From positions 1-43,818 of IMG/VR virus record IMGVR_UViG_3300045257_000068: 43,818 nucleotides of DNA; one strand, given 5' to 3'. Origin of the DNA: a virus. Made by a program: the position numbers and the translations under genes. Under the pieces are notes generated by a model. The model did not search any database. It had not been told where the DNA came from and was given only the letters and a program-made list of their open reading frames with translations. This document shows, piece after piece, positions 11,869 to 43,818 of the stretch. Numbering within the stretch: the stretch's first letter is position 1; every line of letters starts with the position of its first letter.

Positions 11869-11880
11869 TGTTTTTCCTTG

Positions 11881-20466: not shown

Positions 20467-20894
20467 TACTGACCAGACGAGAACCGACTGAATGTATAGC
20501 CAGCACCCGGAGGCAGTCGGCGTAATTCTTGCGGCGTCGTCAGCAGCGCCCGCGTGTTGGCGGGTCGTCCGATCACGCGGAGTTTTTCTTCTGCCAGAAT
20601 GGCGAGCGTCTTGAGGGCTGGGTCCCCGGCTAGATTAAATCCACCGGAACATTCCTGCGCGATCATGTCCGCGAGAGGCAGGAAGATCGCGTCGTCAATC
20701 TCGCCGTCGCTGGGCGGGCTTGGGGTTCCAGCATCCGCTACATAGACAATCTCCATCGCGGCCAACATGGCTAAGGTCGGGTCGAGAATGTCGTCAACCT
20801 TGGAAACGGTTTCAGCGGCAGGCGATTGGTTCGGGACCATGACCCCAAGGTTATCCAGCACCTTATAGATCAACTGAATGCGGGTTTTGCTCAT
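20466..20894 (-). CDS. P22 gp4-like head-tail adaptor / tail accessory factor
   Basis: A 142-residue mostly helical protein: SKTRIQLIYKVLDNLGVMVP, SKVDDILDPTLAMLAAMEIV, DDAIFLPLADMIAQECSGGF and ALKTLAILAEEKLRVIGRP. This is the pattern of the gp4-like tail accessory family that closes the portal ring and in P22 also has a peptidoglycan-degrading activity. It overlaps both neighbours by single bases or four bases. Confidence 0.82.
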   Translation of the reverse strand: MSKTRIQLIYKVLDNLGVMVPNQSPAAETVSKVDDILDPTLAMLAAMEIVYVADAGTPSPPSDGEIDDAIFLPLADMIAQECSGGFNLAGDPALKTLAILAEEKLRVIGRPANTRALLTTPQELRRLPPGAGYTFSRFSSGQ

Positions 20895-28719: not shown

Positions 28720-31104
28720 TTAATGGCTCATCGTGGATGAAACGCCGCCGGTAATGGCCCCGGATTTATCCCGAGACACGTCAACCTTCTTCGGCGCCGC
28801 CTGTGCCTTGGCTAATGCTTCCAAGCCAGCCCTGAACCCCTCACCCATTTGCGCCATGCCCTGAGCAATCTGCGCCATGACTTGCAATGACTCGTCGTGC
28901 CTGCGCTCGGCCGGGTTCACGCCGTCAAGGATTTCCTTTTCCTCGGGCTCGGCGATCTGCTGGCGTTTGGCGGCCAAGTCGGCCTGTGCATTTTGATGTG
29001 CCGTGATTGCGGCGGCGTGCTCGACCTCGCCCATACGGGTCTTATGCATCAGCTCGTGCGCGGCTGTGTCGTGGGCGATCCGCGCCGTCTGATCGGCCAC
29101 AGGATCAAATGGCTCTTGCGGGGTAGCAGCTGGTTCCTGCCCGACCGCTTGCTGTTCCATTCGTGTACGCGCGATAATCTCGGCTATCTCGGCCTGTATC
29201 TTCTCGTTCGCCAGCTCTTTGTTCTGCAACTCAAGCTGGATCATTTGCTGCTGGACTTGCTGCGCCTGCATTTCCTGCGGCGTCGGCGGTTCCGGCTGTT
29301 CTTCGTCGCCCGCCTCTTTCTTCTGCTTGGCAATGAGCTTCTGCACCGGGGGCGGCGCTATAACCTCCAGACGTTTGCCAACCTCGTCGGCCAAGGGCCA
29401 GTCCTGCGCCTTGGCGATCAAGTCCATGAGAACCGGGGCAGTCTCAGGCGCGGCCTGCACGAACTGCGTCATGCTGTCACGAGCTTCCGCTCGCTTGGTC
29501 GTGTAGCTCGGCCCGGTATCCATTACGATGTCGTAGGCGCCGACCGTGACATCGTTTTCTATTTTCTGCTGGTCGAGCGGTTGTCCAGTCTGCTCGTCCA
29601 AGACTTGCATCCCGGTCGGCTTGTTGATCCATTTAAGGTCAACCTTGCCGTCCTCGCCCATAATCCGAATCATGCGCTCGGAGTCGTAGACGTGCGGGAT
29701 CAGGTCCGCGATGATGACGCCGGCCCGCTTGATGGCTCGGGTCCAGTTGTCAACGTAGACGTAGGTTCCGGTGTCGCCTTCCTTCTGCTCTGCAAGGATA
29801 GCCTTGCCTGACTTGGCAGAACCGGGGCGGCCCAAGCCTGGATCGTAGATACCGATGACAGCCTTCATATCATCGACGGAGCGGGCCAATCCCTCTTGAA
29901 TGCCCTGCGATGAAACAGGGGGCTGGACGCGCTCGGGTGCCTTGCCGCCGTTATTAGGGTCTGGCGTGTAGAGCAGGATCGGATGAGCTTTCGAGTTAGC
30001 CGTGTTCCAAAGGTCCTCGAACTTCTCGACGTTCTTTAATGTGCCGACAAACGGCGCCTTCGGTTGAAGCGCGATAACCTCGGCGTCGGTCGAACTATAA
30101 TAGTTGTACAATCGCTGCGGATCGCGGGCGAAGCGGATCAGGCCATGCCGGACAACCTTGCGCCCGATCTTGACCTCTTCACCAATAACCGGGATGACGG
30201 GTATATGATTGCCGGGCCATTCAGTTGTCTCAAGGACATGCGCCGCCGTGATTAAATACCGACATACCTGATAGCCGTCACGCTCCTCGATCTTCTTCGC
30301 GGTATTGCCAATCTCCAAACGCTCTCGTTCGTTCTTGTCAGTCAGGTCGGTTATGCCGCCATCGGGGAGCAATGCCAGCAGCTTCTTGACCGGCTTCTTG
30401 ACCCAATACTCTGCAACCCGAACCATATCGTTATCAAACCAGCCGTCGGTCGAGCCGGTGATCTTAGTGCTGTCGAAGTCCTCCACATTGGCGTCAGGAT
30501 AGCTTTCCTTGAACGCCTCACGGCTCATGTCGTGCGGGACGATGCACCACTTGGCATCCTCACGGGACGGGAAAACGCTATCAGTATCCCAAGCAACCGC
30601 TACACCATCGGAAACACCCGTGATGCGTAGTTCCTGATTAAATGTGGTGTCTCCCGCGTATTCCTTGATGACCTGGAAATGTCCAATGCCACAGCGAACC
30701 TGCGAGTCGGCGCCGGTCATGTACGGGGCGCTGGAATCCGAACGGTTCTCGATGTAGCGGATCATCCCCGCTATGGTTTCGGCGGTATCCTTGTCGCCAC
30801 GGGAATCTACCGGAACAACCTTGATGCTGGGCCGCATCTGCCGCATGTCGCCCGTAACTTGACGGATAAATTGCGGGAGCCGGTTGACCGTGAGCATCGG
30901 ACGGCCATGACGGGCATCGATGTCTGTCTTTGACCATTGCTCGCCTGCGGAGAACTTTAGGTCCTCGTAGGCTTCGTCAATGTTGGTGCGCTCTCTGAGA
31001 ACCCAGCGGGCATGACGGTCCAGGGCTGTGCGGCAGATATCGTCGTCGTCTTTTTTCTTCGATGCTTTCGTTGGCTTGGCGTCGGAAGCGTAATCAGCGG
31101 CCAT
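28720..31104 (-). CDS. Portal protein, P22-like
   Basis: A 794-residue portal. The core (about 25-510) follows the P22 type: RTNIDEAYEDLKFSAGEQWS, PMLTVNRLPQFIRQVTGDMR, MIRYIENRSDSSAPYMTGAD, CGIGHFQVIKEYAG and SGKAILAEQKEGDTGTYVYV. The C-terminal 230 residues are Gln/Glu/Ala-rich and coiled, the barrel extension of P22 portals. It forms the dodecameric DNA gate, drives headful sensing with the terminase, and binds the gp4-like adaptor. The C-terminal tail is longer than in P22 (725 residues). Confidence 0.93.
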   Translation of the reverse strand: MAADYASDAKPTKASKKKDDDDICRTALDRHARWVLRERTNIDEAYEDLKFSAGEQWSKTDIDARHGRPMLTVNRLPQFIRQVTGDMRQMRPSIKVVPVDSRGDKDTAETIAGMIRYIENRSDSSAPYMTGADSQVRCGIGHFQVIKEYAGDTTFNQELRITGVSDGVAVAWDTDSVFPSREDAKWCIVPHDMSREAFKESYPDANVEDFDSTKITGSTDGWFDNDMVRVAEYWVKKPVKKLLALLPDGGITDLTDKNERERLEIGNTAKKIEERDGYQVCRYLITAAHVLETTEWPGNHIPVIPVIGEEVKIGRKVVRHGLIRFARDPQRLYNYYSSTDAEVIALQPKAPFVGTLKNVEKFEDLWNTANSKAHPILLYTPDPNNGGKAPERVQPPVSSQGIQEGLARSVDDMKAVIGIYDPGLGRPGSAKSGKAILAEQKEGDTGTYVYVDNWTRAIKRAGVIIADLIPHVYDSERMIRIMGEDGKVDLKWINKPTGMQVLDEQTGQPLDQQKIENDVTVGAYDIVMDTGPSYTTKRAEARDSMTQFVQAAPETAPVLMDLIAKAQDWPLADEVGKRLEVIAPPPVQKLIAKQKKEAGDEEQPEPPTPQEMQAQQVQQQMIQLELQNKELANEKIQAEIAEIIARTRMEQQAVGQEPAATPQEPFDPVADQTARIAHDTAAHELMHKTRMGEVEHAAAITAHQNAQADLAAKRQQIAEPEEKEILDGVNPAERRHDESLQVMAQIAQGMAQMGEGFRAGLEALAKAQAAPKKVDVSRDKSGAITGGVSSTMSH

Positions 31105-31107
31105 TAT

Positions 31108-31197
31108 CTAAAAATACCGGAGTATGAGAAATGCCGTTAAAAATGGCGCGATCCAAAGTGCAGTCGCAAGTGTCACCACCATCAATGCAGAGCGCAT
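31108..31197 (-). CDS. Membrane peptide between portal and terminase, 29 aa
   Basis: ATG 31197 overlaps the large-terminase stop as TGATG. The 29 residues form one helix (LMVVTLATALWIAPFLTAFL). It fills the gap between two essential genes, which supports it, but size alone keeps confidence low. Confidence 0.4.
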   Translation of the reverse strand: MRSALMVVTLATALWIAPFLTAFLILRYF

Positions 31198-32471
31198 CAG
31201 TTCGCCATCCATGAGCCGGCGCGCGGCGGCTTGTATTTGTATTCGGTCGGCGGCTCAAACTGCGTCGCAAACGTGCGGAGCGCATCGGCCCCGTGCGATG
31301 ACCAATCGTGAAGCGGATTCATCTTCCAATCTTTCAGCTTGTCATCGTATTCGCGGCGGTACTGCTTCAATGCCTCAAGCCCGCGCGCACAACGCTCCGA
31401 GTCAATCCAGCAGCTATCCAGCATCAGGCGGACGGCGTTGACACCATCCAGCACATTGCCGGGCTTAGGATCGAATGTCGGCTCAATACCGAGTGAGCGC
31501 AGCGTCTCGACGCGAGAGCGATCCATGCCCAACATCTGCGCGCCAACGTCGTGCGGAAAGTAATGCGTCTCGTAGAGATAGCCCTTTTGATCTAGGACTT
31601 TCGCGTAATGGTCTAGGCCAACGCCGGAAGCCTCGTAATAGTCGATCAGTCTGCGCTCTTTGCCGACAACTTGAATGAACCAAATAGCTGTAGAATCCGC
31701 CCTTCCCAGATCCCAGGCAGTATAGGTCCGCAAGCCTCGATCTGCCGCAACTTTGCCAATCCTGCCCTCTTCGTCTGCGCGTCTAAGTTCGGTCGCGTAG
31801 AATGCGCCCTTAATAGCTGCATCAAAGCTGCATTCGTATTCCTGGGCATATTGATCCTCGCCCATCTGGTGCTTGGCTTCCGCCAGCTCGTCGTTATCAA
31901 TCAAACTGGTCGAAGAGGCTTTCAGCATCAGGGCGAACCAAGCCGGGTCGGTCTGGGCATCCTTCCAGATGTCATAAAATCCGTTCTTGCCCTTGGGCGT
32001 ACCGATGAAGGTCGCCCAACCCTTACGATCCGACAGCGCCGGTCTAACTACGTCAGTCCAGATCGCCGGGTTCATGTCGCCGTATTCGTCCAGCGTCACG
32101 CCATCCAAGTAGATGCCGCGCAATCGGTCTGGGTTGTCTGCACCGTAAATCCTGATGCGAGAACCGTTCAGCAGATCAACCCGGAGCTCAGTCTCATTCG
32201 GGCTGTCAGCCAATAGTGGCCGCGCGTAATGCTTGAGGTACTGCCAAGCTATATCTTTGGCCTGATTGAACAGCGGCGCGATGTAGGCGTAACGCCCGTC
32301 TGCCTTGCCCTCGGACAAGGCCCGCTTGATCTTGTCATTGATCGTCGCAACAGTCTTACCGGCCCGTCTGTGGGCAACCAGACAGGACCAACGCTGTGTT
32401 CTGTTGTGGAACGGCAGGAACAGTGAACGCGGCGCGTAGTCTAGCTCAATGCGCCTTCGTTCGACTTCCAT
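31197..32471 (-). CDS. terL: Terminase large subunit
   Basis: A 424-residue packaging motor. Walker A is AHRRAGKT (33-40), Walker B GVTLDEYGDM (Asp128, Glu129) and the coupling motif FIGTPKGKNGF (about 155-165). The RNase H-type nuclease domain begins at AWDLGRADSTAIW (Asp254) and ends with HDWSSHGADALR (Asp396). It cuts concatemers and pumps DNA into the procapsid through the portal. It overlaps the small subunit gene by 31 bases. Confidence 0.95.
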   Translation of the reverse strand: MEVERRRIELDYAPRSLFLPFHNRTQRWSCLVAHRRAGKTVATINDKIKRALSEGKADGRYAYIAPLFNQAKDIAWQYLKHYARPLLADSPNETELRVDLLNGSRIRIYGADNPDRLRGIYLDGVTLDEYGDMNPAIWTDVVRPALSDRKGWATFIGTPKGKNGFYDIWKDAQTDPAWFALMLKASSTSLIDNDELAEAKHQMGEDQYAQEYECSFDAAIKGAFYATELRRADEEGRIGKVAADRGLRTYTAWDLGRADSTAIWFIQVVGKERRLIDYYEASGVGLDHYAKVLDQKGYLYETHYFPHDVGAQMLGMDRSRVETLRSLGIEPTFDPKPGNVLDGVNAVRLMLDSCWIDSERCARGLEALKQYRREYDDKLKDWKMNPLHDWSSHGADALRTFATQFEPPTEYKYKPPRAGSWMAN

Positions 32472-34857: not shown

Positions 34858-35009
34858 GCTTCCCCCCGCCTATTTTGCTCGATGCATCGAAAGCCACGCT
34901 TAGCTTTCCACTGCCTGTACCAAGCTTTCGCGTCTTTGATGGCTTGTTCATATTCGACTAATTGCGCCTCAATATTGCGCTTCATGCCTTCAATGGTTTG
35001 TTCGTTCAT
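34854..35009 (-). CDS. Small helical protein, 51 aa
   Basis: ATG 35009 forms an ATGA overlap with the ATPase gene; the longer in-frame start at 35072 would lie inside that gene. The product is a charged helix (EGMKRNIEAQLVEYEQAIKD, AWYRQWKAKRGF). Possibly a partner of the ATPase; no evidence beyond coupling. Confidence 0.55.
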   Translation of the reverse strand: MNEQTIEGMKRNIEAQLVEYEQAIKDAKAWYRQWKAKRGFRCIEQNRRGEA

Positions 35010-35824
35010 ATCGAAAGCCCACCGTGCTGTGGCGTGAATAACCCTGTGGACTGATCGACGTGGAAATGGCATTCGCCGCGTCTGCCGGCGCCGATTTCAC
35101 GGACCTTTGCGGAGATAACCTTCGCCATTGGCGCAACCGGATCACGCACGACAATCAATCCGTTGTCGCACTTGTTGTACCAATTCATTGACCCTTCAAT
35201 GTCCGTTAGCGACGGGGTTTTGCCTTCCTTCACTCCCTCTTTCGTCGGGTGAGCAACAAGGATCACCGCCACGTCCATCGCGCGGCAGAACTGCTTGAGG
35301 TACATCAGGCATTGCCCGATATAGTCCGTCATCATCATTTCGCGGGGCTTGGCGCGTTCCAGTTCGTTCCAGGGGTCAATCAGTAGAACGTCAACGCCGT
35401 CGCGCTCCACGGCCACCACAGCGCGATCCAGCACCCATTGAAGCGTCTTGGGCTCGGTGTCGTAGTGGCTCGGCATGGCCGATTGAACGAAGCAATACCC
35501 GGCGCAGAACTTGTCGAAGCCTCTGCGCTCGCCCCAAATCAGTTCTAGCTTCTGCCTGATATGTCCCTCGTTCTCGGGAACATAAAGAAAGCTTTTGGTG
35601 TTGTTTTCCCGCGCTATGTTGCAAATCACATTGAGCAAGAACGTGGATTTCCCGTGCCCTGCAATGCCAGTGCAGATAGTGAATTGACCCGGATATAGCT
35701 TCCAAAGCTCCGACATTTCCGGCCAGCCCGTGCCGATGCAAATATCAGCGACAGAGCCGCGCTGAGGCACTTCGGCTAGCGAGTGGTAGCCCGGTTGTCC
35801 GTGCCGGTCTGCGGTTACGTCCAT
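35006..35824 (-). CDS. DnaB/RecA-like replicative helicase ATPase
   Basis: A 272-residue protein with Walker A GIAGHGKST (53-61), Walker B VLLIDPWNE (Asp150) and the motif LVAHPTKEG, typical of the RecA-like helicase domain of DnaB/Twinkle. The usual DnaB N-terminal domain is missing, so only the motor half is present. With the DUF1376 protein and the DnaA-domain protein upstream it forms the replication module. It should unwind the fork or load host helicase; no primase gene was recognised in the window. Confidence 0.83.
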   Translation of the reverse strand: MDVTADRHGQPGYHSLAEVPQRGSVADICIGTGWPEMSELWKLYPGQFTICTGIAGHGKSTFLLNVICNIARENNTKSFLYVPENEGHIRQKLELIWGERRGFDKFCAGYCFVQSAMPSHYDTEPKTLQWVLDRAVVAVERDGVDVLLIDPWNELERAKPREMMMTDYIGQCLMYLKQFCRAMDVAVILVAHPTKEGVKEGKTPSLTDIEGSMNWYNKCDNGLIVVRDPVAPMAKVISAKVREIGAGRRGECHFHVDQSTGLFTPQHGGLSI

Positions 35825-36492
35825 CAGATAATCCCATCTGGATATTTGGTGCCGAATGGCGAAAGCGGACGCTCTGGAGTCGCGGGGCCAGCAAGCACAC
35901 GCCCGATATATTCGCGGGGGTTTTGTTTCGTCGCGGCCATTTCGATTGCGGCGCGGGCGAGCGGAACTTCCTTTTTAGATTTAAGAAGCTTGGCAATGAG
36001 CCCGCCAGCGTCTTTGCCGAGAACTTTTTTCCCGCGTTCAAAAAGCTCAGCTTCGTCATTCTTCGGATGCGAGCCGCTTGGCTCGGCATCTTTCTTTTCT
36101 TTATCGGTTATCGGTTGGTAGCCAATCGCTAAAGCATCGCTTGTAGCATCGCTACAGCGTCGCTTGTTCATCGCTCTAGCGTTGCCGCCCTTGCTGCCTG
36201 CCGCCGCTAGCTTCTCGTACTTAGCCTGGGCGTCGGCCAATTCCTCCTCGACGCGCTTGTGTTTCCACTTACCCTCGCCCTTGAATAGCGGCTCTATGAT
36301 CGGACGGGCCGCCCTCCACTCCTTGTCGGTCATGCGCGCGATGCCAGCCAACTGCCGATCATCGTCCGGCAATCCGCCGGTTGCCCAGTAGTGCATACAC
36401 AGCAGGAAATATGCACCGTGTTCTGCGGCGCGCAGTCCTCCAGTGTCTTTGAGATAGTCACCAATATGCCAAGACATTCGCGGTAAACTCAT
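35824..36492 (-). CDS. DUF1376 (YdaU-like) replication-associated protein
   Basis: A 222-residue protein whose first 100 residues carry the DUF1376 pattern: WHIGDYLKDTGGLRAAEHGA, LLCMHYWATGGLPDDDRQLA, RMTDKEWR and GKWKHKRVEEELADAQAKYE. The family is a winged-helix fold found in phage replication initiators, normally beside a helicase gene as here. The C-terminal half is charged, basic and less conserved. Stop overlaps the helicase start. Confidence 0.85.
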   Translation of the reverse strand: MSLPRMSWHIGDYLKDTGGLRAAEHGAYFLLCMHYWATGGLPDDDRQLAGIARMTDKEWRAARPIIEPLFKGEGKWKHKRVEEELADAQAKYEKLAAAGSKGGNARAMNKRRCSDATSDALAIGYQPITDKEKKDAEPSGSHPKNDEAELFERGKKVLGKDAGGLIAKLLKSKKEVPLARAAIEMAATKQNPREYIGRVLAGPATPERPLSPFGTKYPDGII

Positions 36493-36812
36493 GCTGCCTT
36501 CCTCAACAGTCCCCAGCTCTCAAGAATGCAAATCGCCTGCGGCAAGCCCTCAGCAACCACCGAGAAGCCGCCAGCCCGGTTGATGTCGTCCCTAAACTCA
36601 AGCTGTTCTTCGGACGCCCTGCCGCCGTCCTTTTTTAATTCGACGGTGTAAAACTTGCCCCGATGGAGCGCATGAACGTCATGCACGCCGGCGCGAAACC
36701 CCACTGTCCGCCGCGCCTGGCGATTGTTGGGAACGGGCCATATGACAACACCCGGCATTCCGCGCGATGCTATCTCGGCAAACACGGCCCGCTGAATCTC
36801 AGCCTCGGTCAT
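36489..36812 (-). CDS. VRR-NUC domain nuclease
   Basis: A 107-residue stand-alone VRR-NUC domain. The PD-(D/E)xK core is VHDVHALHRGKFYTVELKKD (Asp45, Glu58, Lys60), with Gln70 in the following helix. Stand-alone VRR-NUC proteins are structure-specific nucleases such as Holliday-junction-type enzymes in phages. It lies between the DnaA-domain gene and DUF1376 gene with four-base overlaps, so it probably serves replication or recombination intermediates. Confidence 0.88.
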   Translation of the reverse strand: MTEAEIQRAVFAEIASRGMPGVVIWPVPNNRQARRTVGFRAGVHDVHALHRGKFYTVELKKDGGRASEEQLEFRDDINRAGGFSVVAEGLPQAICILESWGLLRKAA

Positions 36813-37339
36813 GCGCGCTTGCGCTCCAACCGGGCCACGATCTCAGCAATGGTATCGCCAATGGGTTTGAAGCCAGAGCGATCAAGCTCCAGTGGCTTCA
36901 CGACCTCAATCAATGGATCTTCAAGCCGTAATCGGTTGAGCTTCTTGAGTGCATGGGTCACTGATGTGTGATCCGTGTAGCCGAACGATCGGCCAAGCTC
37001 GGGCTGCGAACGCTTGGTGACCGCATAAGCAACCCATACGGCGATCTGCCGAACGCGGACGATTGGCCTGAGACGGCGACCGCACATCAAATCATCTTTT
37101 TCCAAACCATATTTTCTGGCGACGTGCCGCTGCACATCAGCCACTCTGATCCGATGAGGCGCTGGCTTGGGCGGCCCATATAGGATGCCGTAGTTTGTGA
37201 TAACGAAAATCGGTGCGGGCTTCGGGGGTATCCTTAGTTTCTCGGCCCGCTGATTGATCCTTGCGAGAAATCCGGCGCGCTTAATAGCTATGCCGGAAAG
37301 TGTCGGTGTTAGCCGCGCGTGATGAAGCACGTCGCTCAT
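36809..37339 (-). CDS. DnaA domain IV-like replication initiator
   Basis: A 176-residue protein. The C-terminal part (about 68-150) matches the DNA-binding domain IV of DnaA: VQRHVARKYGLEKDDLM, VRQIAVWVAYAVTKRS and the signature ELGRSFGYTDHTSVTHALKK. No AAA+ domain is present. It likely recognises the phage origin and recruits the helicase encoded downstream. The N-terminal 65 residues are Pro/Arg-rich with unknown role. Confidence 0.85.
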   Translation of the reverse strand: MSDVLHHARLTPTLSGIAIKRAGFLARINQRAEKLRIPPKPAPIFVITNYGILYGPPKPAPHRIRVADVQRHVARKYGLEKDDLMCGRRLRPIVRVRQIAVWVAYAVTKRSQPELGRSFGYTDHTSVTHALKKLNRLRLEDPLIEVVKPLELDRSGFKPIGDTIAEIVARLERKRA

Positions 37340-37491
37340 TACTGCCCCCTACCCTTGTGAAATTGCCCCGCCCGGAATGGGGCCTCACGCACGATTTTTA
37401 CTTATTGGTACCCGCGCCAACCGCCCCTGATGGGATTGCCCTTTCAATGGTTTGGGTTGATCGGACTTCCTGCACGGCTGGCGCGGGATTG

Positions 37492-37743
37492 TTATTCAAA
37501 GAGTTTGGCGACAAGCGCGGCCATGACAACCTTCGGCGGCTCAAATTCACCAGCCAGCCATCGCTTCGCCGTCCGCTCGTCTTTCCCAGATAGCGTTGCA
37601 AGGTGAGCCGCTGTTTTGCTCGGCCAACAATGCCGCGCCCACCAAACCCATTCCGGCAAAGGGGCGATTTTGTCCCTCCCCGGCACAAAGTGTCCCTGCA
37701 TTTCGCTGGCGACGGATGGCTGACCGCGTAAAACACCGTGCAT
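37492..37743 (-). CDS. Small HTH regulator-like protein, 83 aa
   Basis: I use ATG 37743 since GGGGGA is six bases ahead. The C-terminal half holds SKTAAHLATLSGKDERTAKR and WLAGEFEPPKVVMAALVAKL, a helix-turn-helix of a phage family with the K-T-A-x(3)-A-x(3)-T-G-x(3)-RTAKRWLSGEFEPP pattern. It lies at the head of the replication operon and is probably a regulator. The frame is open further upstream without start support. Confidence 0.65.
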   Translation of the reverse strand: MHGVLRGQPSVASEMQGHFVPGRDKIAPLPEWVWWARHCWPSKTAAHLATLSGKDERTAKRWLAGEFEPPKVVMAALVAKLFE

Positions 37744-38027
37744 GAGCATTCCCCCGAATACGCATTTACGAATTGATTGTGCGCGACGATTGCCTTGCAC
37801 GGCCGTTGAATTACCCCCGCAGGGGACCGTGGCGAAACCGCAGACAATCTTTCTGAGAGCGACCGACGCGCGCACTCATCGACCGGGACCACTTCGCCAC
37901 GGCGTAATGAATTTGGATCAACGATTTCGATTAACCACGAAGAAACAACTTGAACCGCCCGGTTCACGACATAGTTGTAAGGGGCGTAAATACAGGGCAG
38001 GCTTGGCCCCGAAGGGCGAAGCCGCGA
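37744..38027. other. Non-coding control segment ahead of the replication genes
   Basis: About 280 bases without a convincing gene. It contains the nested dyad at 37945-37978 and several short GC inverted repeats. The 303-residue minus-strand frame crossing it (to 38309) has a basic, low-complexity composition and overlaps the better plus-strand gene at 38028, so I treat it as non-coding. A promoter for the leftward genes or the replication origin may lie here; no clear -35/-10 pair is seen. Confidence 0.4.
37945..37978. repeat. Nested inverted repeat, possible operator or origin element
   Basis: ACAACT at 37945-37950 pairs with AGTTGT at 37973-37978, and inside lies the perfect 14-base dyad GAACCGCCCGGTTC (37952-37965). 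The inner ACC-x4-GGT resembles, with one base less spacing, the repressor-region dyads. It lies in the non-coding segment upstream of the replication genes. Confidence 0.55.
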
Positions 38028-38300
38028 ATGGCAAGTGGAAAGCCACAGCCGAGCCGGGAATTTTTCGAGACGGGCTCGGAACCCGAATTTTTTGTAACTT
38101 TTCACAAGTGGGAGCCCGCAGGCGGCGGCAATGTCCGGTGCTTTGCCTATGCGGAGAGGCGCCCCGGACAGTTCCATCTGCTCTATACGACCATCATGCC
38201 GATGGCCGACATGGGACAGTCCGCTCGAAGGGCGCTGCACGCCATAGCGGACGCCCACAATATCGCTCAGTGGGAACACGAGGGAATGACGGAGAACTAG
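38028..38300 (+). CDS. Hypothetical plus-strand protein between control genes, 90 aa
   Basis: ATG 38028 begins MASGKPQPSREFFETGSEPE; the middle (FFVTFHKWEPAGGGNVRCFA, YAERRPGQFHLLYTTIMPMA) has a good beta pattern and the end is helical. The frame is open to 37950. It lies antisense to the leftward transcript from 38531 and ends five bases from the Cro-like stop. Composition looks like a real protein; function unknown. Confidence 0.55.
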   Translation: MASGKPQPSREFFETGSEPEFFVTFHKWEPAGGGNVRCFAYAERRPGQFHLLYTTIMPMADMGQSARRALHAIADAHNIAQWEHEGMTEN

Positions 38301-38305
38301 GACTT

Positions 38306-38524
38306 TCATCCCGTCGCCTCCCGCATGACCTCGGCAAGGTCAGGACGCAATTCCCGTTTTGGGATTCCAGTCTTTTCGGAGACAAGATCGAGCAGGCTTC
38401 CGTCGATCCTGCGGGCGCCGGTTTCCCAGCGCGAAACCGTGATACTCGTAACCCCAAGCTCTTTCGCCAGCGCGTCTTGCGTCATGTCGCGCTCGTCGCG
38501 GTAGGAACGTAACGGATGGCTCAT
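38306..38524 (-). CDS. XRE-family regulator, Cro-like
   Basis: A 72-residue single-domain HTH protein: MTQDALAKELGVTSITVSRW ETG is the classical XRE helix-turn-helix (about 14-37), then a short helix. It is divergent from the second XRE gene at 38615. Its promoter (38531-38559) puts the expected start point at or beside its ATG, so the mRNA is probably leaderless. Likely the lytic regulator opposing the other XRE protein. Confidence 0.83.
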   Translation of the reverse strand: MSHPLRSYRDERDMTQDALAKELGVTSITVSRWETGARRIDGSLLDLVSEKTGIPKRELRPDLAEVMREATG

Positions 38525-38530
38525 TTCTCT

Positions 38531-38559
38531 CTACTAAACCATTCCGGTAGGACTGTCAA
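38531..38559 (-). promoter_or_regulatory. Leftward early promoter with operator O1 in the spacer
   Basis: Minus strand: perfect -35 TTGACA (38559-38554), 17-base spacer, -10 TAGTAG (38536-38531). The dyad CCTACCGGAATGGTTTAG (38551-38534) fills the spacer and the edge of the -10. Seven bases separate the -10 from the Cro-like ATG. Binding there would block the polymerase. The same arrangement recurs at 39484-39512. Confidence 0.75.
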
Positions 38560-38589
38560 CACCATCATCCGACCACCTTGGCGGGGTGA

Positions 38590-38608
38590 CTTAACCAGCA
38601 CGGTAAGG
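38590..38608. promoter_or_regulatory. Operator-like dyad O2 at the repressor start
   Basis: On the minus strand the 19 bases read CCTTACCGTGCTGGTTAAG, one base longer than O1 but with the same TACCG and TGGTTxAG halves. It ends six bases before the repressor ATG 38615, so it could mediate autoregulation. It covers the TAAGG that serves as ribosome site. Confidence 0.6.
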
Positions 38609-38614
38609 CAAATT

Positions 38615-38938
38615 ATGTCGATGCCGACACGAATCGGGCCGAAAAAGCCCCTGCGCCTCTACATTGCCGAGTGGCGCGAAAACCGGGGTCTGTCCCAGGA
38701 AGAACTCGGGGCGAGATTGGGCCCAGAGGGCGTCTCTGACGTTACTGTGTCCCGGTGGGAGACCGGCAAGCGGAGACCGGATTTAAACGCGCTGGCGGCC
38801 ATCGCTGAGGCTCTGGACATAGATATAAACGACCTCCGGCGCCATCCCGACCAGCCGAGCGCCGATGCCCTGCTCCGAGGGCAGCCCCAGGAAGTCAAAG
38901 ACCAGGCCATCAAGCTCATTCAGGCGATACGGCGATGA
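38615..38938 (+). CDS. XRE-family repressor, CI-like
   Basis: ATG 38615 is preferred; TAAGG is seven bases ahead and longer in-frame starts run into the operator region. The 107-residue product has a clear HTH (RGLSQEELGARLGPEGVSDV, TVSRWETGKRRPDLNALAAI) followed by a second helical region (DINDLRRHPDQ). No LexA-like protease domain is present, so induction would not use RecA-type self-cleavage. Divergent from the Cro-like gene. The next gene overlaps its stop as ATGA. Confidence 0.83.
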   Translation: MSMPTRIGPKKPLRLYIAEWRENRGLSQEELGARLGPEGVSDVTVSRWETGKRRPDLNALAAIAEALDIDINDLRRHPDQPSADALLRGQPQEVKDQAIKLIQAIRR

Positions 38939-39393
38939 AATGGGTTATAGGGCTATGTTGGGCGGTCTTGGCGTGGTCGCCCGCTTCGGCTGACACCTGT
39001 GGACAATTCAAGTCCTGTAGTCGTCATTTCGTGGCAAACGGGGTCTGTAGCGGCCTCGATCAGCTGCCGATCCTTGCCCCGGCATGGGAAGATAAGCCCA
39101 TCCGAATCCGGGCCGTGACCATTGGGCTGCAAATTTCCCCGCGTTGGCGCGATATTATCTTTGGGCGCCCCACAGACGGCTATGTTTTCGCCGGGAATAG
39201 CTACGTTCCCGACATCATGGCGCTCCACTTAGGACCGGGGACCGTAACCAACGTATTGGCGCCCGAAATCGCATTTCTATTGCCGGCCAAGGGGCCAACC
39301 GTTGACGATCACACTCACGTCGATACCCACGTCAATTGCCAAGCGGGCTACCATTTCCGAGCTTGGCTGATCGTCTATTACGATTTCCCATAG
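38935..39393 (+). CDS. Secreted protein coupled to the repressor, 152 aa
   Basis: ATGA overlap with the repressor gene. Residues 1-19 are a signal peptide (MKWVIGLCWAVLAWSPASA) with likely cleavage before DTCG. The mature protein has CGQFKSCSRHFVANGVC, three cysteines in 20 residues, and a second half with DIMALHLGPGTVTNVLAPEI and HVDTHVNCQAGYHF. Because it is co-transcribed with the repressor it would be made in lysogens, as a moron or superinfection-exclusion factor; family unknown. Confidence 0.7.
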   Translation: MKWVIGLCWAVLAWSPASADTCGQFKSCSRHFVANGVCSGLDQLPILAPAWEDKPIRIRAVTIGLQISPRWRDIIFGRPTDGYVFAGNSYVPDIMALHLGPGTVTNVLAPEIAFLLPAKGPTVDDHTHVDTHVNCQAGYHFRAWLIVYYDFP

Positions 39394-39447
39394 GCTTTAA
39401 TCCCTTAGATGACTTGTAACAGCCTGTAAAGCCGCGTCATTTTCAAT

Positions 39448-39465
39448 CCTACCATATTGGCTAAA
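39448..39465. promoter_or_regulatory. Operator-like dyad O3
   Basis: CCTACCATATTGGCTAAA matches the other dyads at CCTACC and TTGG and is 44 bases upstream of O4. A possible promoter around it (TTTTCA 39440-39445, then TAAATT 39462-39467 after 16 bases) has weak elements. Together with O4 it would make a two-site control region for the rightward arm. Confidence 0.55.
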
Positions 39466-39483
39466 TTATTTTCATCAGGGCGC

Positions 39484-39512
39484 TTGCAATTCCTACCGGC
39501 TTGGTTTAGTGT
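39484..39512 (+). promoter_or_regulatory. Rightward early promoter with operator O4 in the spacer
   Basis: -35 TTGCAA (39484-39489), 17-base spacer, -10 TAGTGT (39507-39512). The dyad CCTACCGGCTTGGTTTAG (39492-39509) occupies the spacer and overlaps the -10, as O1 does in the leftward promoter; the two dyads agree in 16 of 18 bases. Transcription would begin near 39519, ahead of the gene at 39538. Confidence 0.72.
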
Positions 39513-39537
39513 GTTCCTCAGAGCAAAGGGGACGCAC

Positions 39538-39765
39538 ATGACCACCACCCTCCAATACGGCCATTGGGGCATCACCGTTTCCACGCGTAACGCCCCGCAC
39601 GATTACGCCCCGGTATCCTGTGAGTTCTTCGCCTATCCGGTCGTAAATGGTCGCGGGCCGATGGATAGCGCCGAAACCGAGCAACAAGCCATTGCCCGGT
39701 GCCGCGAGCTAGGCGGCGAGGTCAAGGGGCCATTCTTTGCCGTGAAAAACCTTCGCGCTTCATGA
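39538..39765 (+). CDS. Hypothetical protein, 75 aa; first gene of the rightward arm
   Basis: ATG 39538 lies behind AAAGGGGAC; upstream in-frame starts would run through the promoter. The product (MTTTLQYGHWGITVSTRNAP, AETEQQAIARCRELGGEVKG) is a compact alpha/beta protein. Its last residues are encoded by the first copy of a 16-base direct repeat, of which the second copy starts the next gene. Function unknown. Confidence 0.65.
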   Translation: MTTTLQYGHWGITVSTRNAPHDYAPVSCEFFAYPVVNGRGPMDSAETEQQAIARCRELGGEVKGPFFAVKNLRAS

Positions 39766-39778
39766 AAAACCTTCGCGC
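39743..39778. repeat. Short direct repeat at a gene junction
   Basis: TGAAAAACCTTCGCGC occurs at 39743-39758 and 39763-39778, 20 bases apart. The first copy encodes the end of one gene (VKNLRAS), the second the start of the next (MKNLRAG). A tandem duplication of about 20 bases explains both. Confidence 0.9.
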
Positions 39779-40040
39779 AGGAATCCTGAACATGGACCCG
39801 CTTTACCTCATCGAACTGGACTACGGAAAGCTCGGCCTGGAAGCCCACGCTTACCGAGATCACACCCGCGCGAAAGTGGTTGACCTCTGCGCGTTTGAAT
39901 ACCGGAACGTCACTCGCATTCTTGAAATCCGCGCAGGCGATTGGAACTCACTGAGCGGAAAGTGGGAGGACATCACCGAAGAGATCATGCGGGAAGCTGA
40001 GTTGATGCGGCGGGATTATCACAGGGAGGCGGCGGAATGA
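39762..40040 (+). CDS. Hypothetical protein, 92 aa
   Basis: The ATG at 39762 overlaps the previous stop (ATGA) but was created by the direct repeat. ATG 39792 (MDPLYLIELDYGKLGLEAHA), behind AGGA, may be the original start, leaving 82 residues. The core reads as a beta hairpin and helices (LIELDYGKLGLEAHAYRD, VTRILEIRAGDW, DITEEIMREAELMRR), a pattern I recall from other alphaproteobacterial phages. Function unknown. Confidence 0.65.
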   Translation: MKNLRAGILNMDPLYLIELDYGKLGLEAHAYRDHTRAKVVDLCAFEYRNVTRILEIRAGDWNSLSGKWEDITEEIMREAELMRRDYHREAAE

Positions 40041-40138
40041 TCGTATTCGCACTCACTCTAGCTGCCGAGGCTGCTTCTCTTGGTTTGTTTATAGCGGCTG
40101 TGTGTCTTTGGGCTTTGGTGTTGGGAGGGATGATCTGA
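40037..40138 (+). CDS. Membrane peptide, 33 aa
   Basis: Overlaps the previous stop as ATGA and the next start as TGATG. The whole product is one or two short hydrophobic segments (MIVFALTLAAEAASLGLFIA, AVCLWALVLGGMI). Overlaps on both sides make it credible in spite of its size. Confidence 0.5.
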   Translation: MIVFALTLAAEAASLGLFIAAVCLWALVLGGMI

Positions 40139-40386
40139 TGGATAATCAAACGCTACCGCCCGAACAGAACGAGCCCGCAGTGGTCAAGTTCAACAGCCCA
40201 TGGCTCGAAGCGCAAGTGAGGCTCTGGATTGTCTCGGTTCACGACGCGATGTTATTTGCCGCCGCGCCCGACATGCTCGCCGCGCTGAAAAGCGTCTACG
40301 CGTCATGGATGGCTGCCAGCGAGGACTTTTTTATCGACGATGATTTGGTCGCCAGAGCAATCGCCAAAGCTGAGGGAGCACCATGA
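40138..40386 (+). CDS. Hypothetical protein, 82 aa
   Basis: ATG 40138 overlaps the previous stop; the longer in-frame start at 40102 lies within the membrane peptide gene. The sequence PWLEAQVRLWIVSVHDAMLF AAAPDMLAALKSVY carries the phage-typical APDMLxALK segment. Function unknown. Confidence 0.62.
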   Translation: MDNQTLPPEQNEPAVVKFNSPWLEAQVRLWIVSVHDAMLFAAAPDMLAALKSVYASWMAASEDFFIDDDLVARAIAKAEGAP

Positions 40387-40574
40387 GCCGCATGTCAGAA
40401 CTCCACGCCAATGCAGCGGTTGTTCTATCTGACCCGGCATTCGATACCTACCGCCTTGAGTGCATCGTGACCGATCTGCGCGGCCATCACCCAGACGATC
40501 TCGATGAGGAGCGCATTTACAAATGCGTCCAAGCCCTCATCAAAATAATGTGTGCCGGAAAGGAAGTAGCATGA
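40383..40574 (+). CDS. Hypothetical helical protein, 63 aa
   Basis: ATGA overlap with both neighbours. The product (MSRMSELHANAAVVLSDPAF, IVTDLRGHHPDDLDEERIYK, CVQALIKIMCAG) is helical and acidic. No family recognised; co-translated with the nuclease gene after it. Confidence 0.6.
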   Translation: MSRMSELHANAAVVLSDPAFDTYRLECIVTDLRGHHPDDLDEERIYKCVQALIKIMCAGKEVA

Positions 40575-41317
40575 GTAACGACGCATTCGCCCGCCACGGC
40601 ATCAAGCACCTGTCGCCGTCCTCGCTGAATATGTGGCGCAACTCTCCCGGCATCTGGGCGCTGAAATATCTCCTGCGGTTGGATGATGGTGGCTCGCCTT
40701 CGATGTGGCGCGGCTCTGCGGTTGAAGCGGGATTAGCAGCAATGCTGCGCGGTGTCGCAGCACCAGAAGCTATCAAGATCGCACGGGATCAGTTCGACCA
40801 GGAAGCGGCGGGCGAAGTCCGAGACGACATAGCAGCGGAACGGGTCATCATCGAACCATGTCTTGCACAGTGCGGGCATTGGATGGGCGTTGCCCCCGGC
40901 CCTCTGAATGCCTCTCAGTTGAAGGTTGAGCACTGGATACACGACGCGGTGAGCGTCCCGGTGATCGGCTATCTAGATTTCGGATTTGACGGGGTAGACA
41001 TCGACCTGAAAACCACCAAGGCGATGCCGAGCGCAGCTCGTCCCGATCATGTCAGGCAAGTCAGTCTCTACCGTGTCGCCCGTAATCGACGCGGCGCCCT
41101 GCTCTATGTGACGCCCAAGAAATTCGCGCAGTACGAGGTTGATGATGCTGCAATGAATGCAGCGTTAGCGGGGCTTCGCGCCGACGCGCTTTCGCTATCG
41201 CGCTTCCTTGCGTCACACCAAGACGCGGAATCCGCTGTGCGTTCGCTTCCGATGGATACCGAGCATTACGCATTCCCAACCGGGATAACCCTTCCTGATT
41301 ATTTGAACGCAGCATGA
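40571..41317 (+). CDS. PD-(D/E)xK nuclease, RecB/Cas4-like phage exonuclease
   Basis: ATG 40571 forms an ATGA overlap, so I use it rather than the in-frame start at 40523. The 248-residue product has RLDDGGSPSMWRGSAVEAGL near the start, the catalytic core VIGYLDFGFDGVDIDLKTTK (Asp136, Asp145, Lys147) and the QxxxY motif QVSLY (Gln163). This is the RecB/Cas4-type nuclease of phage recombination cassettes, probably a 5'-3' or end-resecting exonuclease working with the proteins at 41346-42277. Confidence 0.85.
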   Translation: MSNDAFARHGIKHLSPSSLNMWRNSPGIWALKYLLRLDDGGSPSMWRGSAVEAGLAAMLRGVAAPEAIKIARDQFDQEAAGEVRDDIAAERVIIEPCLAQCGHWMGVAPGPLNASQLKVEHWIHDAVSVPVIGYLDFGFDGVDIDLKTTKAMPSAARPDHVRQVSLYRVARNRRGALLYVTPKKFAQYEVDDAAMNAALAGLRADALSLSRFLASHQDAESAVRSLPMDTEHYAFPTGITLPDYLNAA

Positions 41318-41345
41318 AACTGAAAACTGAAACTGGAGAATGAAA

Positions 41346-41960
41346 ATGGAAATTCCGAAACCGAGCGAAGGCGGGGGAGATTTTGAACTAGCCCCAACGG
41401 GGACGCATCTGGCGATTTGCTATCGAGTGATCGACTTGGGCACCCAGGAAACTACGTGGGAAGGCCAGACCAAACACGCGCACAAGGTTCTGATCGGATG
41501 GGAATTGCCCGACGAGAAGATGAACGACGGGCGGCCCTTCATCATCCAGCAACGCTACACATGGTCGATGCACGAAAAGGCCACGCTGCGGAAACATCTG
41601 GAAGCTTGGCGCGGGACAGCGTTTGTCGAAAAGGATTTCGGCAAGGGCGGGTTCGACATTAAGAACATTCTTGGCAAGCCCTGCGTGATTTCGATTGTTC
41701 ACGCCGAGCACAACGGCAAGACCTACGCGAACATTTCCGGCGTCGGCAAGCTGATGAAGGGGCAGACGGCGCCGGCACAAACCAATCCTTCAGTTTATCT
41801 CTGGCTGCACAAGGATCGGTGGGACCCATCCATCTACGCGACGTTGCCCGAATGGTTGAAAAACACCATTGCGAAAAGTCCTGAGTATCAGGAACTCGCG
41901 TCACCCTCGACCGTCCCAGATGCCGTGGATGAAATGCCAGCAGAGGTCATACCGTTCTAA
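41346..41960 (+). CDS. Putative ssDNA-binding/recombination partner protein
   Basis: ATG 41346 is used since GGAG at 41335-41338 is better spaced than for ATG 41340. The 204-residue product carries the conserved pattern APTGTHLAICYRVIDLG, AHKVLIGWELPDEKM, MHEKATLRKHLEAWRG, FDIKNILGKPCVISIVH and ISGVGKLMKG, a family widespread in alphaproteobacterial phages next to RecB-type nucleases. I think the fold is OB-like and binds single strands; this is recall and context, not proof. Confidence 0.78.
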   Translation: MEIPKPSEGGGDFELAPTGTHLAICYRVIDLGTQETTWEGQTKHAHKVLIGWELPDEKMNDGRPFIIQQRYTWSMHEKATLRKHLEAWRGTAFVEKDFGKGGFDIKNILGKPCVISIVHAEHNGKTYANISGVGKLMKGQTAPAQTNPSVYLWLHKDRWDPSIYATLPEWLKNTIAKSPEYQELASPSTVPDAVDEMPAEVIPF

Positions 41961-42277
41961 TGAGCGACAACCTCCCATTCTCAGAACAATACCGACTTGT
42001 TGCGAAGCAGTGGGTTGACGCTGACGCGGCGGCGAACTTGCTCGAAGAATGCAAGACGCCAACGCTCAGTCAGAAAATGGTCGCGCTTGGCGACATGCCG
42101 GTGAGCCGCGCCGAAATGCTCGTGAAGGCTTCTGACGAATGGCACGAATACATCAAGATCATGGTTGAAGCGAGGAAGCGCGCCAATCTTCTGCGAGCGC
42201 AAAAGGACTACATCGAAATGCGGGCGAAGGAATATCAGTCCGCCGAGGCGTCGAAGCGCGCGGAAATGAGGCTCTGA
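41960..42277 (+). CDS. Conserved recombination-cassette protein, 105 aa
   Basis: A helical protein (LPFSEQYRLVAKQWVDADAA, DMPVSRAEMLVKASDEWHEY, KIMVEARKRANLLRAQKDYI, EMRAKEYQSAEASKRAEMRL) of a family that regularly follows the ssDNA-binding-type gene in related phages. No catalytic residues seen. Single-base overlaps on both sides (TAATG/TGATG type). Probably an accessory factor of recombination. Confidence 0.75.
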   Translation: MSDNLPFSEQYRLVAKQWVDADAAANLLEECKTPTLSQKMVALGDMPVSRAEMLVKASDEWHEYIKIMVEARKRANLLRAQKDYIEMRAKEYQSAEASKRAEMRL

Positions 42278-42627
42278 TGCAAAGACGCCCGCGAGACAAA
42301 GACGAAGCGCACATGAAATTCGTGCGGACACTTCCATGCCTCTTATGCGGCGACAACACCAGCACCGAATGCTGTCACGTCCGCATGGCTGACCGATCCG
42401 TGGCAAAGCCGGTCACTGGAATTGCGATGAAGTGCGACGACCGTTTCACAGTCCCGCTGTGTGGCGCGCACCACAGACAGCAGCACGAACACGGCAATGA
42501 GCATCATTGGTGGACGCTTGCCGGGATAGACCCGATCAAGGTCGCGCTGGCGATCTATTCGGTAAGGCCAGATTACGAAAGAGCGGAAGCGATTGTTTCG
42601 GCGTGTCGTGAACGTGCGGCAGCATAG
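42277..42627 (+). CDS. HNH-like nuclease-fold protein (DUF968-type)
   Basis: A 116-residue protein with PCLLCGDNTSTECCHVRMAD and VPLCGAHHRQQHEHGNEHHW, two Cys/His sets giving a zinc-stabilised HNH-like centre, then WWTLAGIDPIKVAL. The pattern fits the DUF968/Rap family of phage recombination nucleases that cut branched DNA. It lies right after recombination genes. Confidence 0.8.
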   Translation: MQRRPRDKDEAHMKFVRTLPCLLCGDNTSTECCHVRMADRSVAKPVTGIAMKCDDRFTVPLCGAHHRQQHEHGNEHHWWTLAGIDPIKVALAIYSVRPDYERAEAIVSACRERAAA

Positions 42628-42636
42628 GAGGGTTTG

Positions 42637-42930
42637 ATGCTCTACCGTCCAAAGTGGGACAACCAGGCGAGCGCCATCACACTCGAAGGTTTGATCGCAT
42701 GGCTGGAAACGCAAGACCCCGAGCAGACCTACGACAGCTCCGATCACACGGTCTGCATGGTTGCACAGTTCTGCAAAACCATCGGCGTTGAGCCTCCACT
42801 CGTATTAACCGGCGACATTGCCGACATCGCGTTCAGTGGCAAGGAAATCCCATGCACGTTTGGCGATGCGCTTGTGCGGGCCAGGAAGATTGCGCGGGCG
42901 GCATGGAGGACACATGGCGGAAAAACATGA
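42637..42930 (+). CDS. Hypothetical protein, 97 aa
   Basis: ATG 42637 behind TAGGAGGG; the TTG one codon earlier is less likely. The core ASAITLEGLIAWLETQDPEQ, SDHTVCMVAQFCKTIGVEPP and ARKIARAAWRTHG forms a mostly helical small protein of a type seen in other phages. Function unknown. Overlaps the next gene by 17 bases. Confidence 0.7.
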   Translation: MLYRPKWDNQASAITLEGLIAWLETQDPEQTYDSSDHTVCMVAQFCKTIGVEPPLVLTGDIADIAFSGKEIPCTFGDALVRARKIARAAWRTHGGKT

Positions 42931-43111
42931 TCCGAGATTTCTCGTTCTACCGAAGAAATCCGCGTTCAAAGTTGAAACGCATGTTTGTTGCGCCTGCCCC
43001 GATTTGCATTTGGTGCTTTTCGACAAGAAGGGAAAGGCATTTGCTCAGGCAATTTTGCCGACCAAATTTGTCGATGAGCTTCATGAGTTTGTTCACAAGA
43101 AACCTAGCTGA
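42914..43111 (+). CDS. Hypothetical protein, 65 aa
   Basis: ATG 42914 begins MAEKHDPRFLVLPKKSAF; upstream in-frame starts lie inside the previous gene. The product contains THVCCACPDLHLVLFDKKGK and a helical end (FVDELHEFVHKK), so it looks like a small beta-hairpin protein with three cysteines. Function unknown. Confidence 0.6.
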   Translation: MAEKHDPRFLVLPKKSAFKVETHVCCACPDLHLVLFDKKGKAFAQAILPTKFVDELHEFVHKKPS

Positions 43112-43142
43112 CGTTATCAGCCGAGAATGGTAAATCTTTGTT

Positions 43143-43173
43143 TTGATTGCGTAAAAGACTGAAATGTTATGCT
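43143..43173 (+). promoter_or_regulatory. Possible promoter upstream of the DUF6948-like gene
   Basis: TTGATT (43143-43148) and TATGCT (43168-43173) are separated by 19 bases; shifting the -10 to TTATGC gives 18. This lies in a gap of about 110 bases, the largest in the plus arm here, and AT content rises locally. Elements are only moderate. Confidence 0.33.
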
Positions 43174-43220
43174 GCGTTAAACCGCGCGCCTCGGCGGTCC
43201 TCTGGGGCGGGAGAACTGAA

Positions 43221-43529
43221 ATGAATACCCATCCAAATCGCACCAAGCGCACAGGCGAGCGCGCCGTCATGGTGACAACCTCACACAAGGGAGTGTTCTT
43301 CGGCTACGCCAGCAAGACTGATGGCGCGGTCATCAAGCTTCGCCGTGCTCGCAACTGCATCTACTGGCCAACGGCGAACAAAGGCTTTCTCGGCCTCGCT
43401 TCGATTGGCCCGGTTGATGGCGCAAGAATCGGCCCGGCGGCGGACATCGAACTGCGCGACATCACTTGCGTTGCTGAGTGTTCGGAAGAGGCAACGAAAG
43501 CCTGGGAGCTTGCCCCGTGGTCGCGGTAG
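43221..43529 (+). CDS. DUF6948-like small protein, 102 aa
   Basis: I use ATG 43221 (GGGAGAAC ahead) over the in-frame start at 43164. The product carries HKGVFFGYASKTDGAVIKLR, RARNCIYWPTANKGFLGLAS, GARIGPAADIELRDITCVAE and ATKAWELA, which fits the small phage family I recall as DUF6948 with its ARNCIYW core. Function unknown. It precedes and overlaps the repeat-bearing DUF7666-like gene, and the two may be co-translated. Confidence 0.75.
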   Translation: MNTHPNRTKRTGERAVMVTTSHKGVFFGYASKTDGAVIKLRRARNCIYWPTANKGFLGLASIGPVDGARIGPAADIELRDITCVAECSEEATKAWELAPWSR

Positions 43530-43616
43530 CCCAAGCAAAACTTGTCCGGGGCGAAGTCCCGGACGCATTTAAGTCCGGGTACGGGTCCGGGTACGGGGAC
43601 GGGTCCGGGTACGGGT
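43504..43616. repeat. Terminal redundancy of the circular assembly (right copy)
   Basis: Identical to bases 1-113, as described for the left copy. Position 43504 equals position 1, so the unique circle is about 43503 bases if the two repeat versions are treated as one locus. Confidence 0.93.
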
Positions 43617-43818
43617 CCGGGTACGGGTACGGGTCCGGGTACGGGTACGGGTACGGGTCCGGGTACGGGTACGGGTACGGGTCCGGGTACGGGTACGGGT
43701 ACGGGTCCGGGTCCGGGTCCGGGTACGGGTACGGGTCCGGGTCCGGGTACGGGTACGGGTCCGGGTACGGGGACGGGGACGGGTCCGGGTACGGGTCCGG
43801 GTACGGGGACGGGTCCGG
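43517..43818 (+). CDS. Partial second copy of the repeat-bearing DUF7666-like gene
   Basis: GTG 43517 corresponds to GTG 14. The frame runs through 41 hexamer units and is cut by the window end. It is the same locus as 14-712, seen again because the assembly overlaps itself, not a second gene. The unit order differs from the left copy from the eighth unit on. Confidence 0.8.
   Translation, partial: MVAVAQAKLVRGEVPDAFKSGYGSGYGDGSGYGSGYGYGSGYGYGYGSGYGYGYGSGYGYGYGSGSGSGYGYGSGSGYGYGSGYGDGDGSGYGSGYGDGS
43574..43818 (+). repeat. Hexamer minisatellite, right copy (41 units, truncated)
   Basis: The same three hexamers, GGG preceded by TAC, TCC or GAC. As single letters the first twelve units read S-Y-S-Y-D-S-Y-S-Y-Y-S-Y, against S-Y-S-Y-D-S-Y-Y-Y-S-Y-Y on the left. 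Later blocks such as S-S-S-Y-Y-S-S-Y are shared but displaced. This is either real length/order variation or misassembly. Confidence 0.95.

Follow-up and report, generated by a model that had tools for sequence, protein, structure and literature searches.

In phage lambda, the immunity region (O_L/P_L, rex, cI, P_RM/O_R/P_R, cro) consists of two divergently transcribed small regulators with three operators between them and a second operator cluster beyond the repressor gene, at the other early promoter. The repressor gene and the rex genes, which are extra genes at this position, lie between the two operator regions; the repressor message is leaderless, O_R2 is located at -42, and recombination and replication genes occupy opposite sides of the switch.

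Related arrangements have been described in linear plasmid prophages of enterobacteria, in which O_L controls repA. The immB region of N15 and phiKO2 contains five operators, three O_R and two O_L, together with a repressor, CB, that lacks LexA-like cleavage features (PMC4997575), and PY54 produces leaderless cI and cro mRNAs (PMC4488713). Among rhizobial temperate phages, Rhizobium phage 16-3 possesses a C repressor and an immunity region, immC (PMC10460002 and papers cited there).

A divergent regulator pair in a temperate P22-like phage

The DNA studied here is the 43,818-base virus record IMGVR_UViG_3300045257_000068 (positions 1-43,818), the whole of which is hereafter referred to as the window. 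The presence of an integrase gene with a tyrosine-integrase family match (1027-2289) and of a P22-like portal gene (28720-31104) identifies the record as a temperate P22-like (podovirus-type) phage; a terminase gene lies at 31197-32471. A near-identity search with positions 35000-43800 against 50,697 phage records returned zero matches. The host is probably a soil alphaproteobacterium, and probably a member of the order Hyphomicrobiales; related genome contigs originate from metagenome-assembled genomes labelled Hyphomicrobiales, Aestuariivirga and Verrucomicrobiota, the last of which may be misbinned. Amid the structural genes, a 499-aa protein (20891-22390, minus strand) shows methyltransferase and weak glycosyltransferase family matches.

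The region of interest is organized around two divergently transcribed single-domain helix-turn-helix (HTH) regulators with operator-like dyads between them: XRE1 (72 aa; 38306-38524, minus strand; Pfam HTH_3, E = 1.9e-12) and XRE2 (105 aa; 38621-38938, plus strand; HTH_3, E = 1.6e-16). Both family matches agree with the initial annotation, which had noted two XRE regulators beside the dyads. From the alignment of starts, XRE2 most likely begins at 38621, the second ATG, and not at 38516 or 38615. The XRE2 structure model (pLDDT 83) finds its best solved-structure matches in the operator-bound P22 c2 repressor and in restriction-modification C proteins, with E-values near 1e-3, in line with the small size of the domain. 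C proteins such as C.Csp231I and C.AhdI are likewise small XRE proteins with a fold similar to that of XRE2, but XRE2 stands in a phage setting, within a divergent regulator pair and with no restriction-modification genes beside XRE1 or XRE2; the methyltransferase gene at 4484-5212 is distant from both. HTH matches are the only ones in the 105 residues of XRE2, which leave no room for an S24 peptidase/dimerisation domain at the C-terminus, and none was found there, so that RecA-stimulated self-cleavage would not be expected to mediate induction. No alphaproteobacterial SOS boxes (GTTC-N7-GTTC or GAAC-N7-GAAC) occur in the window, and a LexA route to induction is hence without support here.

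Relatives were retrieved with XRE2 as query and, together with the named Bradyrhizobium phage ppBjS10J-1 (OP596615), amounted to 21 other contigs. All 21 carry XRE1 (minus strand) and XRE2 (plus strand) back to back, separated by a gap of about 90-120 bp.

Operator dyads in the window and in related phages

Four copies of a shared dyad had been reported in the initial annotation, with sequences and coordinates that proved exact. Lengthened by one base, these dyads conform to a common 19-mer, YCYTACC-N5-GGYTWAR, with ACC-N5-GG as its core. O1 (TCCTACCGGAATGGTTTAG, 38552-38534, minus strand) and O3 (CCTTACCGTGCTGGTTAAG, 38608-38590, minus strand) lie between the regulators, while O4 (TCCTACCATATTGGCTAAA, 39447-39465, plus strand) and O5 (TCCTACCGGCTTGGTTTAG, 39491-39509, plus strand) lie beyond XRE2, O4 being 44 bp upstream of O5. 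A scan of the 43,818-base record returned these four matches and none besides, the reversed control pattern returned zero, and 100 dinucleotide shuffles yielded a mean of 0.01 matches and a maximum of 1. The 19-mer was fitted to the four sites themselves, and the independent test is a matrix built from the sites of 11 relatives with the window left out, in which O1, O3, O4 and O5 emerge as the top four sites of the window (26.2, 23.9, 23.4 and 16.2 bits), followed by a next match at 14.2 bits. In the initial annotation, too, the motif had not been seen elsewhere in the window. A looser 18-mer with 3 mismatches allowed revealed no overall enrichment in the window (14 matches versus 10.2 expected); the exact matches are the exceptional ones.

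Although the four copies are real and far beyond chance, the count had overlooked a weak fifth site, O2 (TCCGACCACCTTGGCGGGG, 38568-38586, plus strand). This site is degenerate in the window (8.2 bits, rank 18), and its identification is therefore based on position, which matches that of O2 in the relatives. The number of operators is thus probably five. With three candidate operators in the regulator gap and two past the putative repressor gene, the window follows the plan of lambda and N15, although it differs from lambda in having two distal sites instead of three and in its wider operator spacing (22 and 34/44 bp). A sixth operator upstream of O4 was not found in the window; a fair match is present in L028 and L030, and a weaker one in L024.

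The dyads are weakly palindromic, with 3-5 of 9 pairs matching, and the TTAACC within O3 resembles a CtrA half-site. These features could point to chance matches or to binding by a host protein such as CtrA, but the shuffles and the relatives-only matrix refute the former, and either origin of the dyads appears extremely improbable. CtrA or another host regulator as the binder was set aside, since a host protein would not account for dyads that keep their places but differ in step with the phage regulators.

Dyads are found at corresponding places in most of the 21 other contigs. Measured from the XRE2 start, the gap dyads of most close relatives fall at -86/-88 or -96/-100 (O1), about -52 (O2) and about -30 (O3). 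An agnostic test found, in 15 of the 21 contigs that could be tested, a 19-mer common to both regions that was equalled by at most 5 of 100 shuffles. Five distant relatives (L029, L032, L034, L071 and L072) and the closer L024 showed no significant inter-region sharing in the stretch tested, and most of them have dyad-like sequences in the regulator gap. The lack of a clear second operator region in some distant relatives counts against the reading of the locus favoured below.

In ppBjS10J-1 (locus L073), XRE2 is 69% identical to that of the window, and the same XRE1-XRE2 pair is accompanied by dyads at 11872 (minus strand), 11916 (plus strand) and 12328 (plus strand), by a palindrome, TCCTACCGTTTTGGTAGGT, just past the 12328 dyad and by a weaker dyad upstream of XRE2, all at corresponding places. 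Unlike the window, this phage has no gene inserted between XRE2 and O4; its rightward genes are ERF, YqaJ and NinB. In the literature searched, ppBjS10J-1 is not named and its switch is not described, nor is strain S10J mentioned in a paper on spontaneously produced Bradyrhizobium phages.

Eight phages have O1 and O2 33-34 bp apart, and four have them 44 bp apart; between O4 and O5 the distance is 43-45 bp, or 34 bp in L030. The alternative spacings are about one helical turn apart (resultant length 0.98 and 0.95 at 10.5 bp), which would fit bound dimers touching on one face of the helix, a pattern that is suggestive only, the phages being related.

Predicted promoters and message starts

O1, O3 and O5 each lie in the spacer of a predicted promoter, albeit with poor -10 boxes. 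For O1 and O5 this had been recognized before, and the 17-base spacers are as claimed. The predicted leftward promoter P_XRE1 (TTGACA-17-TAGTAG; 38559-38531, minus strand) has a -10 box that ends 6 nt before the XRE1 ATG, and the predicted rightward early promoter (TTGCAA-17-TAGTGT; 39484-39512, plus strand) has hexamers and a spacer that are identical in L030 and similar in L020, L022 and L070. The term near-consensus, however, was too strong for either promoter, since both -10 boxes match TATAAT at 3 of 6 positions and a consensus promoter scan of the region detected nothing at its threshold. The assignment of promoters is consequently based on conserved geometry. On the XRE1 side, a TTG-type -35 box followed by a dyad in a 16-18-nt spacer is present in 21 of 22 contigs, and in 20 of 22 the -10 box ends 6-9 nt before the ATG.

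A third promoter-like pair had been overlooked. This putative P_XRE2 (GTGACT-17-CAAATT; 38586-38614, plus strand) holds O3 in its spacer, and its -10 box ends 6 nt before the ATG at 38621, a geometry seen in most relatives with spacers of 16-18 nt. The conserved distance from -10 box to ATG predicts a leaderless or nearly leaderless XRE1 mRNA, and likewise for XRE2, so that both messages are probably leaderless; a leaderless message for XRE1 as well would set the window apart from lambda. Between the rightward promoter and the ATG at 39538, the leader is ordinary and includes a purine-rich stretch, AAAGGGGA. An exact 16-nt tandem repeat, TGAAAAACCTTCGCGC, with copies 20 bp apart, is located at 39743-39778, in the closing part of this first rightward gene.

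Flanking genes and the spread of the sites

The distance of about 1 kb between the promoters had been considered unusual in the initial annotation, a view that the comparison with relatives and with lambda does not sustain. O4 and O5 lie at +509 and +553 from the XRE2 stop, displaced by a 152-aa gene (38935-39393, plus strand) whose start overlaps the XRE2 stop. Relatives that lack an inserted gene mostly have O4 about 37-57 bp past the XRE2 stop and O5 34-45 bp beyond it, placing the second pair about 40-100 bp past the putative repressor gene; L021 and L027 also contain extra sequence between XRE2 and O4. With an extra gene in the rex position, the spread of the sites corresponds to the ordinary lambda plan. 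The 152-aa protein has a signal-peptide-like start and cysteines, with no family match and no IMG/VR relative, and its gene, situated behind the putative repressor gene, is likely expressed in the lysogen.

Recombination genes lie on the O4/O5 side of the region and replication genes on the XRE1 side, an arrangement likewise seen in lambda. A PD-(D/E)XK nuclease-like gene is present at 40523-41317, and leftward genes for a DnaA-C-like protein (36809-37339) and a helicase (35006-35824) are separated from XRE1 by a convergent 90-aa gene (38028-38300, plus strand) that runs head-on against XRE1, 5 bp apart. On account of this gene, the XRE1 transcript may not extend into the leftward replication genes, which is a further point against the favoured reading. 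Genes with weak similarity to it are found at the equivalent position and in the same orientation in L020, L021 and ppBjS10J-1, where the gene is annotated, whereas L022, L031 and L033 have leftward genes in its place, with XRE1 heading leftward operons. The approximately 250 bp (37770-38027) that separate the 90-aa gene from the leftward HTH/DnaA-like genes contain neither a clear gene nor an operator.

Covariation of regulators and operators

Relatives with diverged regulators have different dyads at the same places. Besides the dyads of the window, two further classes were assigned by eye: CA-N5-TG dyads in L028, L029, L034 and L019, and GTTxxC dyads in L031, L032, L071 and L072. In both proteins, the residues that follow class are in or just past the recognition helix. 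XRE1 T26 is replaced by D, and R38 is lost, in 4/4 CA/TG phages; XRE2 D40 is K in 4/4 GTTxxC phages, V41 also follows class, and R51 is lost in 3/4 CA/TG phages. On the trees, the three classes require only 2-3 changes, meaning that the independent events are few and that shared ancestry explains part of the pattern.

This covariation bears on which protein uses the sites. It is conceivable, if rather doubtful, that just one XRE protein uses all five, the other binding a subset of them or other DNA, as in phiKO2, where CB binds all five operators and the set bound by Cro differs (PMC4997575). Against this, recognition-region residues shift with operator class in XRE1 and XRE2 alike.

A proposed lambda-like model of the switch

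The lysogeny control circuit with shared operators proposed in the initial annotation is the best reading of the locus, with its layout recurring in the 21 other contigs and its operator classes shifting with the regulators. Taken together with the early promoter and second operator pair (O4/O5) predicted beyond the putative repressor gene, we consider with good confidence that the locus serves a temperate P22-like phage as its immunity region, working in a lambda-like manner with XRE2 as a CI-like repressor and XRE1 as a Cro-like regulator. The assignment of roles is based on position. XRE2 lies between the operator regions, behind a predicted weak promoter with the weaker O2 and O3, and with the early promoter next, all of which suggests a repressor; XRE1 heads the leftward operons of L022, L031 and L033, as might be expected of a Cro-like protein.

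The roles might also be reversed, with XRE1 maintaining lysogeny as the repressor and a Cro-like XRE2 opening the rightward early operon. Of the two regulator genes, XRE1 is preceded by the better -35 box and may be monocistronic, given the convergent gene behind it in the window, and in most relatives the early promoter is close behind XRE2. Such a reversal is nevertheless unlikely, as the XRE1 promoter has one of the best-matching operators and the XRE2 promoter a weaker one, which fits XRE2 sparing its own promoter; the leftward operons headed by XRE1 and the inserted gene behind XRE2, where lambda has lysogeny genes, speak likewise for a CI-like XRE2.

With XRE2 as the CI-like protein, its dimers would bind O1, in the spacer of the leftward XRE1 promoter, and O5, in that of the rightward early promoter, excluding RNA polymerase from both. 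The rightward promoter would serve the recombination genes and, provided that the genome is circular, the integrase further along this strand. O3, in the spacer of the weak promoter of XRE2 itself, would mediate negative autoregulation. An activating dimer may occupy O2, the centre of which lies about 44 bp upstream of where XRE2 transcription is predicted to start. This distance is close to the -42 of lambda O_R2 and suggests self-activation by XRE2. O4 may aid O5 through cooperative binding or through a loop that joins the two regions. To turn the repressor off, XRE1 would occupy these same operators, chiefly O3, and both regulators would be translated from leaderless mRNAs.

Every main feature of this predicted switch has precedent, though the papers searched contained no description of any of them for this phage group. 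The likeness to N15/phiKO2 and PY54, which differ from the window in lifestyle and in the control of repA, is one of description, as is the comparison with 16-3, which belongs to a different phage group (the 61-kb AP-16-3/16-3 group). The window departs from lambda in the missing C-terminal S24 domain of XRE2. Tentatively, the locus could represent an undescribed class of minimal switch common in Hyphomicrobiales podophages, characterized by single-domain regulators, leaderless mRNAs, spacer operators at each regulated promoter, immunity groups that arise by matched changes in both recognition regions and all five operators, and induction independent of RecA-stimulated cleavage. The analysis provides a putative operator code with at least three specificity classes, from which immunity groups and transcription starts are predicted, for a group of phages represented by one named isolate in the collection searched.
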